A DNA stretch of 63,887 nt from an uncultured Oscillospiraceae bacterium (GTDB taxonomy: Bacteria; Bacillota; Clostridia; Oscillospirales; Oscillospiraceae): positions 1 through 63,887 of the forward strand of contig CANQFV010000013.1 in assembly GCA_947599875.1 (NCBI GenBank), read 5' to 3'. A model generated the notes under the pieces. It was not told where the DNA came from. It was given only the letters and a program-made list of their open reading frames with translations, and did not search any database. The translations under genes and the position numbers were made by a program. The stretch's first letter is position 1, and every line of letters begins with the position of its first letter. Shown here in pieces: positions 56,963-60,648 of this stretch.

Positions 56963-57264
56963 TGAGACAAAAGAACCGTCCCGGTGTATCTCTTTCGTCC
57001 GCCGGTGCTACATGGGGACGGTTCCGCAGTCACACCTTCGGTGCTACAGCGAAACCGTCCCCAAGTCACACCTCCTCAGAAGAACGGACGTAAAAAATCT
57101 TTCGATGACAGAGCGGTTTCCCGCGGGACTGAGGGACGGTTTTTTTGTCACACCGAAGGTGGGACTAAAGAACCGTCCCTCTGTCACGCCCGCAGGGGGT
57201 TGGATTATATTATGTCAGGCTGTGACGAAGTTGGGACAAAAGAACCGTCCCGGTGTACGCCCCA
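56963..57264. repeat. GGGACGGTT / AACCGTCCC hairpin repeat block, left copy
   Basis: Six copies of AACCGTCCC or its complement with flanking TGTCACAC or GTGGGACTAAAG elements. The best pair (57133-57181) folds AGGGACGGTT onto AACCGTCCCT with a 7-nt loop. A nearly identical block sits on the other side of the pilin gene. No convincing gene lies in 56824-57326. Confidence 0.85.
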
Positions 57265-57326: not shown

Positions 57327-58817
57327 TTAATGGACCTCGACATGAACTGTATAAATAGGCTGCTGCCCGCCTCTTTTTTCTGGGCCTTTAAATGTTATAG
57401 TAGCGCTTCCTTTACCCACAGCCGTCACCGTTATTATTTTCCCGGTTACACTAATCGACACAACACCTTCTTTGTCTACGGTCGGATCACCTGTAATGGT
57501 CAAAGACGAGTTGATTGTCCCGGTTTTATAACTTTCATCTTCAAGACTCAACACCAACGTGCCTTTATCGCCGCTGCCTTGATTTTTACTTCCAATCTTT
57601 ATGGTTTTGTTATATTTTACTACAATCTCCTTCTCCCTTGGATCGGCGTCCTCTGAAACAACGCCATTGAGCGGAACCGTTAAAAGCCCGTCAACAGATT
57701 TTACATTTATTATAACTCCGTCTGTAACACTGCTCAGGTTATAATCTGGGCTTATCAAATTTTCCGGTGTAATATCGCCGCTCAGAACGGAACCAACCAT
57801 CGGGATATAGCCAGACATAGCACTCAGGTAATCATCATCTTTGAGGGGAGTACCGCCTTTGGCTGTCTTCACTTCCTTGGCGGCCTGCATCAGTGCAAGG
57901 AACGCCTGCGCGTCCTGCTCAGCCTTATTGCTGTTTTGGTAATCTGAGATGATTGTACTCCAGTTACCAGACGATTTGAAAGATGCGCTAAAGTAGTCGT
58001 AACCGCCCTGCACTCGAAGTTTTTCCAAATCTTCCTTCATGTCCTCTGTGAGGCTCGGATGGGTTTTTGCATAGAGGTAGAAAGCATAGTTTCTGGTCAA
58101 TGTTGCGCCAAGCTCGGTTGAAGTTGCCCGCTGAGTTTTACTCGGGTCAGAGGGGACAGGCTCAAACAGCTCAAACGCACTGCCACTCTTCCACGCATTC
58201 AAAAATGTTGAGCTGTCAATCGTTGTGGTTTTTTCCACAATCCTTTCAAGGTAGTCATTCGCGCCCTCTGTGTCAACCTTTACGCCCTCAAACATGTCGG
58301 CTTTTCCGTTGAGACCGTTTACAAGAGTGGATACGATGTCCCAAATCTCATCGACGCTTCCGGCAAAGGAGCTTGCGCCCTTCGTCTCGATATTGTTCAA
58401 ATATTTTTTTACAGTATCGTTATTTTGGATTCCCGAAACAACGGAATTAAGGTCAGCAGGAACGGGATTGCCCCACTTGTCATAGGTCAGCCGTATGCTG
58501 TCTATGTCTCCAAACGCATCAGTAAGAGCGGCTTTCACCTCCTCACTGGCAGAGCCGAGAATTTTAGGAGCGCTGTCTGCTGTTAAAACGATCATGGCGC
58601 TGCCCGTGGAATCGGGGTAAGAGTAGCCGGCAAGATCAATCGCGTGGATGATCTCACCAACTAAATCCTTGTCCACGCCCTTGTTGGCGTAGTTGATGTA
58701 CCCCGTGTAGGCCACAGCGCCCACGGCGGACAGGATCGCCAGAATGGCGATCACGACGATCAGCTCCACCAGCGTGAAGCCCTTGGTTTTGCGTTTTTGT
58801 GAAGAATTTTGTTTCAT
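57327..58817 (-). CDS. Large type IV pilin-like protein with C-terminal Ig-like domain
   Basis: 496 residues, start after AAGGAGAGCAACC. The basic leader ends KTKG and the prepilin site is Gly13-Phe14, with FTLVELIVVIAILAIL as the conserved first helix and Glu18 at position +5. An exceptionally long ectodomain follows (most pilins are 120-200 residues). The end (TITGDPTVDKEGVVSISVTG, then ITVTAVGKGSATITFKG and YTVHVEVH) resembles a bacterial Ig-like (BIG2) adhesion domain. It is on the minus strand and its upstream region is an invertible promoter segment. GC and codon use are lower than neighbours, suggesting acquisition. Confidence 0.88.
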   Translation of the reverse strand: MKQNSSQKRKTKGFTLVELIVVIAILAILSAVGAVAYTGYINYANKGVDKDLVGEIIHAIDLAGYSYPDSTGSAMIVLTADSAPKILGSASEEVKAALTDAFGDIDSIRLTYDKWGNPVPADLNSVVSGIQNNDTVKKYLNNIETKGASSFAGSVDEIWDIVSTLVNGLNGKADMFEGVKVDTEGANDYLERIVEKTTTIDSSTFLNAWKSGSAFELFEPVPSDPSKTQRATSTELGATLTRNYAFYLYAKTHPSLTEDMKEDLEKLRVQGGYDYFSASFKSSGNWSTIISDYQNSNKAEQDAQAFLALMQAAKEVKTAKGGTPLKDDDYLSAMSGYIPMVGSVLSGDITPENLISPDYNLSSVTDGVIINVKSVDGLLTVPLNGVVSEDADPREKEIVVKYNKTIKIGSKNQGSGDKGTLVLSLEDESYKTGTINSSLTITGDPTVDKEGVVSISVTGKIITVTAVGKGSATITFKGPEKRGGQQPIYTVHVEVH

Positions 58818-58897
58818 GGTTGCTCTCCTTGTATAAATATTTATAGAAAGCGGTCGTGCCGCGATCTACCGGGTTTTGCGTCTACGGGGGCCGGTGT

Positions 58898-59165
58898 GAC
58901 ATGGGGACGGTTCTTTAGTCCCACCAGTGTGCGCACTGGTGTTACGAAATAACCGTCCCCACTGTCCCACCTCCTCAGTCACAGAAGACTTCCCCGCGGG
59001 ACTGAGGGACGGTTTTTTTGTCACACTGGAGCGTAAGCGGAAGTGGGACTAAAGAACCGTCCCTCTGTCACGCACGGCAGAGAGTCTGTCCTGTCCCCCG
59101 AAAACAAAAACGGGGGCGTCCCCGTGTCCCACCTGCGGTGGCACAACGGAACCGTCCCCAGGTTT
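58898..59165. repeat. GGGACGGTT / AACCGTCCC hairpin repeat block, right copy
   Basis: Five further AACCGTCCC-type copies. The sequences around 58993-59026 and 59043-59073 repeat those at 57120-57153 and 57159-57189 almost exactly, in the same orientation. They lie in the leader that would precede the pilin mRNA in the inverted state. Confidence 0.85.
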
Positions 59166-59229
59166 GCCCCGTCAAAACGCACAAAAAATCTGCTGAACCT
59201 CTCGTTTACCCGCCCCTCCCCACCGGATT

Positions 59230-59253
59230 ACAGGACATTATTGATATAATGTC
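59230..59253 (+). repeat. Inversion site, left
   Basis: 24-bp sequence whose core is GGACATTAT, TGAT, ATAATGTCC (59233-59254): 9-bp dyad arms and an asymmetric 4-bp spacer, as in tyrosine recombinase core sites. Its exact reverse complement is at 59542-59565. Confidence 0.93.
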
Positions 59254-59274
59254 CGATTCGGCGTGCCGCAAGAA

Positions 59275-59302
59275 ACAAAAAAGCGCGGTGTTTTCACCGC
59301 GC
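59275..59302 (-). terminator. Intrinsic terminator, minus strand
   Basis: GCGCGGTG/CACCGCGC stem with TTTT loop (59283-59302); on the minus strand it is followed by TTTTTTGTTTC. In the present orientation it ends leftward transcripts coming from the recombinase. Confidence 0.88.
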
Positions 59303-59348
59303 AGAGCTAATTCGGCCTGATCAAATCGACGGAAAAGCCATTTTTGGG

Positions 59349-59414
59349 CACGCCGCGACGCCCCCACCGGCCTTCCAATTTTTTCGGAAGCCCGTGAGGG
59401 CGCGTCGCGGCGTG
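59349..59414. other. Long GC hairpin inside the invertible segment
   Basis: CACGCCGCGACGC (59349-59361) pairs with GCGTCGCGGCGTG (59402-59414), and the stem continues inward with few mismatches to GGCCTTCC/GGAAG around AATTTTTTC. It could insulate transcription or fold in the pilin leader. Confidence 0.75.
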
Positions 59415-59464
59415 GAAAGTTTATGTAGCCATTAGAAATTTTTAGTGAAATTTTTCAAAATCTC

Positions 59465-59492
59465 TTGACATTTTAGGCGAATCGCCTATAAT
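59465..59492 (+). promoter_or_regulatory. Near-consensus promoter in the invertible segment
   Basis: TTGACA (59465-59470), 16-nt spacer, TATAAT (59487-59492). The spacer and -10 carry TAGGCGA-A-TCGCCTA, a 15-bp dyad that could bind a repressor. It currently reads toward the 3' end of the recombinase gene. Confidence 0.85.
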
Positions 59493-59541
59493 GGGAGACG
59501 AAGAATTTCGTTAGGCCTGCGCTTTCCCGCCGGATGAACGA

Positions 59542-59565
59542 GACATTATATCAATAATGTCCTGT
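59542..59565 (-). repeat. Inversion site, right
   Basis: Exact reverse complement of 59230-59253. Its last base is shared with the TAA stop of the recombinase gene, so inversion leaves that gene intact. Confidence 0.93.
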
Positions 59566-60488
59566 TATCTTTTCGACCGTTTTGACCGTTTGCCCTTCCT
59601 GCCCTTGTGGGTATGGCGGGGCTTTTTTGTTGTCTCCGGTGCCGCCTTTGGCCATTTCGGCACAAGTCCAAGCGAGTTCACAAGCCGCCGATGCTCCGCG
59701 CCGCTGGTCTTGATATAAATTCTCGTCGTCTCGATGCTGCTGTGACCTAAAACGTCGGAGAGCTTGGTCACGTCCCCGCCGTTCTCCACGAAAGTCCGTG
59801 CAAACAATTTCCGGAGATTATGCGGGAAAGCTTTTGAGCCGCTGACCATAGCGCGGAGGGCGGCCATTTTCACGATGAGCCAGATCGTCCGCCGGTCTAA
59901 GGGGTTGCCGTGCTTGCTCCGGAAGATGATCCCGGAGGTGATGTTCTGCTCCTGGGCGTATGCCTCTAAAGCTAAGGCCAGGTCGTCCGGGATCATAATG
60001 GTGCGAATTTTCCGCTTGCAGGTAACCTGAATTTCCCGTTTATGCACGGCCTCCACGGTGAAGTATTGCAGCTCCGAGGCCCGGATGCCGGAGGAGGCTA
60101 ACGACCATATGACCAGCCGGTCACGCTCGTTTGCCGCCGCAGCCATCGCCCGGTAGTCCGCCTTGGTGAGTTCCTTGCTCTCCGGGCAGTAGGCGTCCTT
60201 CTGGATGTTCATCCGCTGCGTCCCGCACCCTGTCCAATCCATGAATTTGAAGAAGGAGAACAGTGAGGCCAGCATGGTGTTGATGCTGGAGGGCTTGTAG
60301 GCCCGCTCAATGAGCGTTTGTTTGTAGGCGCAGGTGGTCTCGCTTGTCACCTCCCGCCCGTCGAGAAAAGAAGCGTAGACGCAGACGTCGTGCAAATACT
60401 TCTTGATGGTGTGTACGCTCCGATCGAGGCGGACGAGATGCGCCCGAAACTCCCCCACAGCCTCCGGTGTGATGATTCTTGTGTTCAT
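59565..60488 (-). CDS. Tyrosine recombinase (phase-switch invertase)
   Basis: 307 residues from ATG 60488 (AAGGAGGAAATTTTT upstream). N-terminal SAM-like core-binding domain (VHTIKKYLHDVCVYASFLDG). Catalytic set: SSGIRASEL (Arg136), CKRKIRT (Lys), FPHNLRK (His223, Arg226), LGHSSIETTRIYIK (His249, Tyr258). The C-terminal tail is strongly basic (KKPRHTHKGRKGKRSKRSKR). Being adjacent to paired core sites, it is the expected enzyme for the inversion, like FimB/E or RecV. A transposon or integrase role is less likely since no other element ends are seen. Confidence 0.92.
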   Translation of the reverse strand: MNTRIITPEAVGEFRAHLVRLDRSVHTIKKYLHDVCVYASFLDGREVTSETTCAYKQTLIERAYKPSSINTMLASLFSFFKFMDWTGCGTQRMNIQKDAYCPESKELTKADYRAMAAAANERDRLVIWSLASSGIRASELQYFTVEAVHKREIQVTCKRKIRTIMIPDDLALALEAYAQEQNITSGIIFRSKHGNPLDRRTIWLIVKMAALRAMVSGSKAFPHNLRKLFARTFVENGGDVTKLSDVLGHSSIETTRIYIKTSGAEHRRLVNSLGLVPKWPKAAPETTKKPRHTHKGRKGKRSKRSKR

Positions 60489-60648
60489 AAAAATTTCCTC
60501 CTTGCGTGTATTTTGCCCCATATGGGTGTAAACAATCTAACACGCAAAAGAGGGGGATGGTCAAGAGGAAGATTGCCTTGCATTTTTCGCCGCCGCGTGC
60601 TACACTGGGACAAAACGACATAAATCCACGCGGATCAGGAGTGATTAC

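Follow-up and report, generated by a model that had tools for sequence, protein, structure and literature searches.

A probable invertible-promoter cassette for a type IV prepilin-like protein, one of a dispersed set in an uncultured Oscillospiraceae bacterium

Invertible promoters beside tyrosine recombinases are already known. The locus considered here lies on a 63,887-nt stretch of DNA from an uncultured Oscillospiraceae bacterium (contig CANQFV010000013.1 of assembly GCA_947599875.1; hereafter, the window) and comprises a tyrosine recombinase gene, a short, putatively invertible promoter segment and a gene for a large type IV prepilin-like protein. The window is the whole of contig C13 of a 2.73-Mb genome in 89 contigs; C labels denote contigs and modules of this genome, and L labels numbered loci in it and its relatives. 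The fim switch of Escherichia coli (FimB/FimE) resembles the locus in that an invertible promoter beside a tyrosine recombinase drives a fimbrial subunit, but its products are chaperone-usher pili and it comprises a single operon. Moraxella Piv likewise varies a type IV pilin by DNA inversion, although with an unrelated recombinase and a single coding inversion. The many invertible capsule promoters of Bacteroides fragilis provide combinatorial surface variation, as proposed here, but depend on a serine invertase, Mpi, acting globally in trans on the capsule loci. To our knowledge, the nearest case in which a tyrosine recombinase varies a type IV pilin is the shufflon, where the coding ends of one gene are rearranged, not the promoters of many genes.

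The shufflon (Rci, PilV) shares with the window locus a tyrosine recombinase linked to variation of a type IV minor pilin (PMC9045228, cited in part). RecV, which serves the cwpV and flg switches of the gut clostridium Clostridioides difficile, is likewise a tyrosine recombinase; there too the inverted repeats are short (21 bp at flg), and a small segment that inverts lies upstream of genes for a surface structure. However, in the portion of PMC5386303 cited here, RecV serves several switches with dissimilar repeats, whereas in the present genome every site pair has a recombinase beside it and the sites resemble one another, and flg control acts after transcription initiation, unlike the proposed promoter switch. 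The same portion mentions the E. coli fim switch and 13 or more switches under one recombinase in B. fragilis. Inverton group 139, found with tyrosine-type invertase group 35 (33 invertons, 32 from Clostridia; PMC11892184, cited in part), has in common with the window a Clostridia host and a tyrosine-type recombinase near the invertible segment. This source also describes an inverton of Intestinimonas butyriciproducens, with 241 bp between repeat starts, whose orientation shifts with passage and with growth on mucin carriers. The size and taxon of the group are compatible with the window cassette, the two being compared by description only; it differs in that the main text of PMC11892184, in the part cited, lacks the words pilin, pili and prepilin and describes no repertoire of a single gene family. 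A description of a dispersed prepilin cassette set with a recombinase at each switch was not found in our literature search; this scale and layout appear to be new.

The window locus is, with a probability of about 0.9, an invertible-promoter cassette for phase variation. Its order is tyrosine recombinase, right site, invertible segment, left site, prepilin-like gene (Table 1). The two perfect inverted 24-bp sites noticed in an earlier sequence-only reading are present, with zero chance matches, and the outermost base of the right site (59565) is the third base of the recombinase TAA stop codon. Enclosed between them is a 288-bp segment carrying the promoter described in that reading, which agrees with the TTGACA/TATAAT consensus at 12 of 12 positions with a 16-nt spacer; a scan of 58800-60600 found this match and no other promoter-like one. 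The terminator reported within the segment was recovered as well (-15.9 kcal/mol, z -4.2). In the sequenced orientation the promoter faces the recombinase, pointing into the 3' end of its gene, and the terminator would block read-through into the prepilin gene. Because of this promoter direction and terminator position, the sequenced state is read as OFF for the prepilin, in agreement with the earlier proposal. The adjacent recombinase would invert the segment between the two sites. The -10 element would then fall at 59303-59308, as had been calculated, and face the prepilin gene, so that in the ON orientation the promoter would drive the large prepilin-like protein, which would be transcribed and displayed on the surface.

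A search for the same sites in opposite orientation in related genomes, which the sequence-only reading had suggested as a check, was successful. The segment of L072 (ON) agrees with the inverted segment of L070 (OFF) in 281 of 288 columns (98% identity), against 74 of 467 in direct alignment, and with the inverted segment of module C61 of the same genome as the window (OFF) in 282 of 288, against 73 of 468. The left flanks of L072 are collinear with those of L070 (255/326) and C61 (265/316), and the right flank of L070 aligns in direct orientation (241/315). The window segment itself has an inverted counterpart in L071 (ON; 230/293 columns inverted, 75/472 direct). L072 also matches the inverted segments of L067 and L068 (269/290 and 268/290; 92-93% identical), with right flanks agreeing in 281/306 and 287/302 columns. 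Since L067 and L068 share the L072 segment while their recombinases come from another branch, the modules look mosaic, and recombinase genes appear as if exchanged between them. Homologous segments occur in nature in opposite orientations, and the genome containing the window has modules with the promoter toward the prepilin (C1 and C2) as well as in the OFF state (C13, C45, C36, C6, C7, C12, C25, C42a, C61, and C67). Inverted homologous segments with collinear flanks, along with ON and OFF paralogues in one genome, support phase variation by promoter inversion, as claimed earlier.

Among 30 prepilin-type modules, 12 of them from the genome containing the window and 18 from named genomes, the orientation is OFF in 23, ON in five and ambiguous in two; C61 is included although its contig end shows no visible prepilin. 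The corresponding figures for 48 modules with other cargo are 27, 12, and nine. As the modules are relatives rather than independent samples, the preponderance of OFF states is suggestive at most. The 30 loci L144-L173 of the window's genus stand outside the orientation, repeat-pair and tree counts.

Table 1. Features of the cassette in the window.
Feature	Position	Strand	Evidence
Prepilin-like surface protein, 496 aa	57327..58817	-	PF07963, TIGR02532
Leader, 412 nt, left site to prepilin ATG	58818..59229	-	Sequence, repeats, terminator scan
Left recombination site, ACAG-GACATTAT-TGAT-ATAATGTC	59230..59253	+	20-mer core repeated genome-wide
Putatively invertible segment, 288 bp	59254..59541	.	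Opposite-orientation homologous segments in relatives
Predicted intrinsic terminator	59273..59302	-	Terminator scan and folding energy
Long hairpin behind promoter	59350..59414	.	Folding energy and alignment of 17 segments
Putative invertible promoter, TTGACA-16-TATAAT	59465..59492	+	12/12 consensus
Conserved stretch directly after -10, GAAGAATTTCGTTAGGCCTGCGC...	59500..59534	+	Alignment of 17 segments
Right recombination site, reverse complement of left	59542..59565	-	Sequence, repeats
Tyrosine recombinase, 307 aa	59565..60488	-	PF00589, PF02899; motifs intact

The initial description of one switch held for the cassette itself and proved too narrow for the genome, in which it is one of 12 site pairs. 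The cassette belongs to a dispersed repertoire of 12 site pairs, 15 recombinase copies and 18 prepilin genes. Inverted pairs of the site core are found at 12 positions in the genome, with the spacers TGAT, AGAT, and AAAT, an identical TGAT 20-mer core being common to nine loci; additional sites or part sites are located at contig ends. Relatives of the window recombinase (47-100% identity) are encoded at 15 places, none with an internal stop, C42b running up to its contig end; the count excludes a fragment of 53 residues (C12:38239-38397) and four weak matches at 29% to 31% identity. The products of the 18 large prepilin genes are 408-544 aa long (one start-cut by a contig end), with similar signals and helices and strongly divergent bodies. 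Eleven modules are complete on a single contig, each running recombinase, site, segment, site, prepilin. The remaining seven prepilin genes begin 0-479 bases from a contig end, and the C61 contig ends 2 bases beyond its right site.

The recombinase genes of the B group (seven of the 15, and one more cut by a contig end) have their TGA stop within the spacer of their own site. Five B modules (L009, L010, L011, L013, and L015) contain an invariant 456-bp block that begins shortly ahead of the left site and runs into the start of the prepilin gene, while the DNA identity is 90-94% for their recombinases and 62-65% for their prepilin bodies. This block could result from gene conversion, site-specific exchange or short-read assembly error. 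No comparable identical block was found across the segments of the A group, which includes the window.

The adjoining tyrosine recombinase is complete, as first noted, with intact motifs SGIR, HNLRKLFA, and LGHSSIETTRIY and a ribosome-binding site of good quality ahead of its ATG (60488). It matches PF00589 (E 1.6e-24) and PF02899 (E 4.7e-06), the catalytic residues R136, H223, R226, H249, and Y258 are invariant in all seven rows of alignment A1, and its best solved relative is XerC-like 4a8e (1.9e-38). Scores on the XerA, XerC, and XerD NCBIfam equivalogs (131.7, 107, and 98.7 bits) are below the cut-offs of 220, 335, and 330, and those on the tyrosine-type invertase models PRK09870 and PRK09871 (FimB/FimE type; 27.1 and 31.3 bits) are below 221 and 222, which distinguishes it from the fim invertases. 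Its closest named relatives are from Oscillospiraceae metagenome-assembled genomes named Lapin, presumably originating from rabbit gut. The designation of the switch as self-contained matches the anatomy; the action of the recombinase on these sites is what we infer, and probably it does act on them.

The presence of a class III signal and helix (GFTLVELIVVIAILAIL), with F1, E5 and a hydrophobic helix, together with matches to PF07963 (E 9.5e-09) and TIGR02532 (30.1 bits, cut-off 16.3), identifies the N terminus of the target protein as that of a prepilin. The predicted structure (model pLDDT 68, predicted local distance difference test) has a helical middle and a C-terminal beta domain. No PDB match fell below E 0.001, and the prepilin profile aligns to pilin chains across the N-terminal part only. 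The earlier name of pilin thus suits the signal and helix but not the remainder, and "prepilin-like protein" fits better; its role may be adhesive. The genome also encodes type IV pilus machinery, including PilB-, PilT-, PilC-, and PilA-type genes and two genes of the prepilin-peptidase family, with matches to PF00437, PF00482, and PF01478. A type IV pilus-type cluster (PilB, PilT, PilC, PilA types, and others) is located at L061:6545-18102 (C2:86544-98101), starting about 3.4 kb past the prepilin of the ON-state module C2, and includes an N_methyl protein carrying a CHAP domain.

A scan of named genomes revealed 352 relatives of the recombinase, the best 80 of which were used in the family analyses. 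Sequence of at least 1,100 bases beyond the recombinase stop is available at 66 of these 80 loci. In this wide Clostridia family, 63 of the 66 carry a pair of inverted repeats at the 3' end of the recombinase, compared to three of 316 control placements (56/66 and 1/316 with a stricter score). Prepilin-linked modules have sites of the type ACATTAT-N4-ATAATGT, and most others ACATAAT-N4-ATTATGT; L098, L103, and L110 have the former despite other cargo. On a tree of 91 recombinases, prepilin cargo groups with recombinase lineage: the prepilin label, carried by 33 rows, takes four changes, whereas shuffled labels take 27.0 on average and as few in 0 of 500 shuffles, and starred branches force at least two. 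One starred branch holds 28 prepilin rows, and the five others diverge close to the base on the other side; for three unlabelled rows among the prepilin rows, the available downstream sequence is shorter than 90 bases. The tree omits L075, where the contig ends within the recombinase, and L080, L116, and L138, which have an in-frame stop in the reading used. All 15 recombinases of the genome containing the window are labelled prepilin-linked, C8, C17, C42b, and C61 being at contig ends without a visible prepilin.

Within the window's genus, the recombinase family is present in 19 of 34 genomes (E up to 1e-40) and the large prepilin profile in eight (E up to 1e-15); the exception G031 has the prepilin profile and no close recombinase of this branch among the matches listed. 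Of the loci L144-L173, 12 repeat the sites and N-termini of counted modules and 18 are more distant recombinases (39-49%) with no prepilin in their short flanks. Among 300 genomes drawn from the family, with at most five candidates scored per genome, three genomes from two of 106 genera have the prepilin profile (E up to 1e-30).

Other cargo, as judged from a Pfam scan of 10 of the 48 targets, comprises surface proteins with BspA-type leucine-rich repeat, VWA, LPXTG, and Cna_B features, and helicases with HA domains. Five recombinase-inverton modules (L076, L077, L099, L103, and L110) lie upstream of helicase-like proteins. The two of these that were Pfam-scanned, L077 and L099, contain PF03457, ResIII, and DEAD domains, and PADLOC gives partial hits to the helicase part of L076, L077, L099, and L110 (best E 1.7e-17); such modules possibly provide phase-variable nucleic-acid processing or defence. 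Seven others (L080, L090, L100, L104, L125, L127, and L130) are followed, after about 630-830 bp, by small secreted proteins whose N-termini resemble LLLSxCAxLLVAxSVxGTxAYLT and are reminiscent of TasA/CalY-like biofilm fibre proteins; the Pfam scan of the L080 and L104 proteins gave no match.

C45 has the same terminator hairpin as the window cassette, and C36 has it with an altered loop. The segment also contains a much longer hairpin (-55.1 kcal/mol, z -7.5), whose stem is kept across 17 aligned segments with weak covariation. This very stable hairpin and the strong terminator are both located between the recombinase gene and the prepilin; the hairpin would lie behind the promoter in either orientation and may act as an insulator or bidirectional terminator. 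Many columns directly after the -10 element are invariant or nearly so in the 17 segments, and the transcript start is expected in this stretch. The leader contains hairpins like repetitive extragenic palindromes (REP) and a terminator-like hairpin at 59125-59110, the fold of which is not exceptional (z -1.0). The window has 12 exact REP-like repeats, 11 of them flanking the prepilin gene on either side, compared with a mean of 0.9 and a maximum of three in 50 base shuffles. They form inverted-repeat clusters (GGGACGGTT/AACCGTCCC) at 56974-57251 and 58904-59158, some falling inside the prepilin leader, and a similar cluster is found at L016:10689-11507 (-). A Y1_Tnp (IS200-like) transposase is encoded close to module C45 and may be a partner of these repeats.

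Several observations weigh against phase variation by promoter inversion or against so simple a form of it. The opposite-orientation pairs are from different species or paralogues, and the window locus is present in one orientation. The flanks of L071 match those of the window poorly on the left (136/406) and moderately on the right (194/317), and the left flank of L072 is not alignable with those of L067 and L068 (109/438 and 114/433). Three of the 66 relatives (L101, L107, and L134) have no repeat pair. The putative promoter is identified by its consensus match alone. A window-like terminator was not evident in B-type segments inspected by eye and is therefore no universal element of these cassettes. 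The leader hairpin could attenuate or stop ON transcripts, making a plain ON model too simple. The prepilin body has no recognised pilin fold in the model, and the identical 456-bp block of the B group may hide assembly errors.

The segment could be fixed in place and its repeats coincidental, in keeping with the single orientation at this exact locus, yet this is hardly credible given perfect 24-bp sites free of chance matches and homologues in opposite orientations. Many similar copies at separate genomic places, and the frequency of tyrosine recombinases in mobile elements, would suit a mobile element that disperses the module and inverts the segment as a by-product. We consider this very unlikely, as the sites enclose the promoter segment only and not the whole module, the geometry is retained across a wide family with differing cargo, and the orientation changes while the flanks remain in place. 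It is also unlikely, if less so, that the promoter mainly yields antisense RNA to the recombinase in one state, as a feedback on switching, with the prepilin controlled elsewhere. The OFF-state consensus promoter does aim into the recombinase 3' end, and 23 of 30 prepilin-type modules are OFF; however, the promoter scan offered no other candidate, each of the 11 modules found entire on a single contig has a prepilin gene on its ON side, and the layout is the same in relatives with other cargo.

Which recombinase serves which cassette is a closer question. One or a few enzymes might serve several or all of the cassettes in trans, in the manner of Mpi and RecV, so that inversion is real and the cassettes are co-regulated. 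The TGAT 20-mer core shared by nine loci and the similarity of the five compared B-group recombinase genes speak for this, while an open recombinase gene adjoins each of the 12 site pairs, and spacers and outer bases vary by recombinase lineage. ON and OFF modules also coexist in one assembly, although the ON modules C1 and C2 lie outside the A and B lineages. Co-regulation in trans is possible, if doubtful. Alternatively, invertible-promoter cassettes may switch independently, and type IV pili built on shared machinery would then display varying combinations of large subunits. We tentatively propose, at somewhat less than even odds, a combinatorial, self-diversifying system of up to 18 independently flipping recombinase/promoter/prepilin cassettes, in which promoter-leader blocks are homogenised and the exposed prepilin bodies diverge. 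Gene conversion or site-specific swapping between loci would keep the blocks similar; the 456-bp block of the five B cassettes and the L072-type segment in L067 and L068 can be cited for this.

If this proposal is true, one strain could use its shared type IV machinery to assemble many different pili, and a commensal Gram-positive gut bacterium would possess combinatorial surface variation based on type IV prepilins, on a scale comparable with capsule switching in Bacteroides but with a recombinase gene per cassette. The family supplies the same switch in many natural replicates whose recombinases and sites co-vary, a resource for studies of what sets site specificity and independence. It may also explain a class of Clostridia invertons reported to shift in orientation with growth on mucin surfaces, should the families prove identical (PMC11892184, cited in part).

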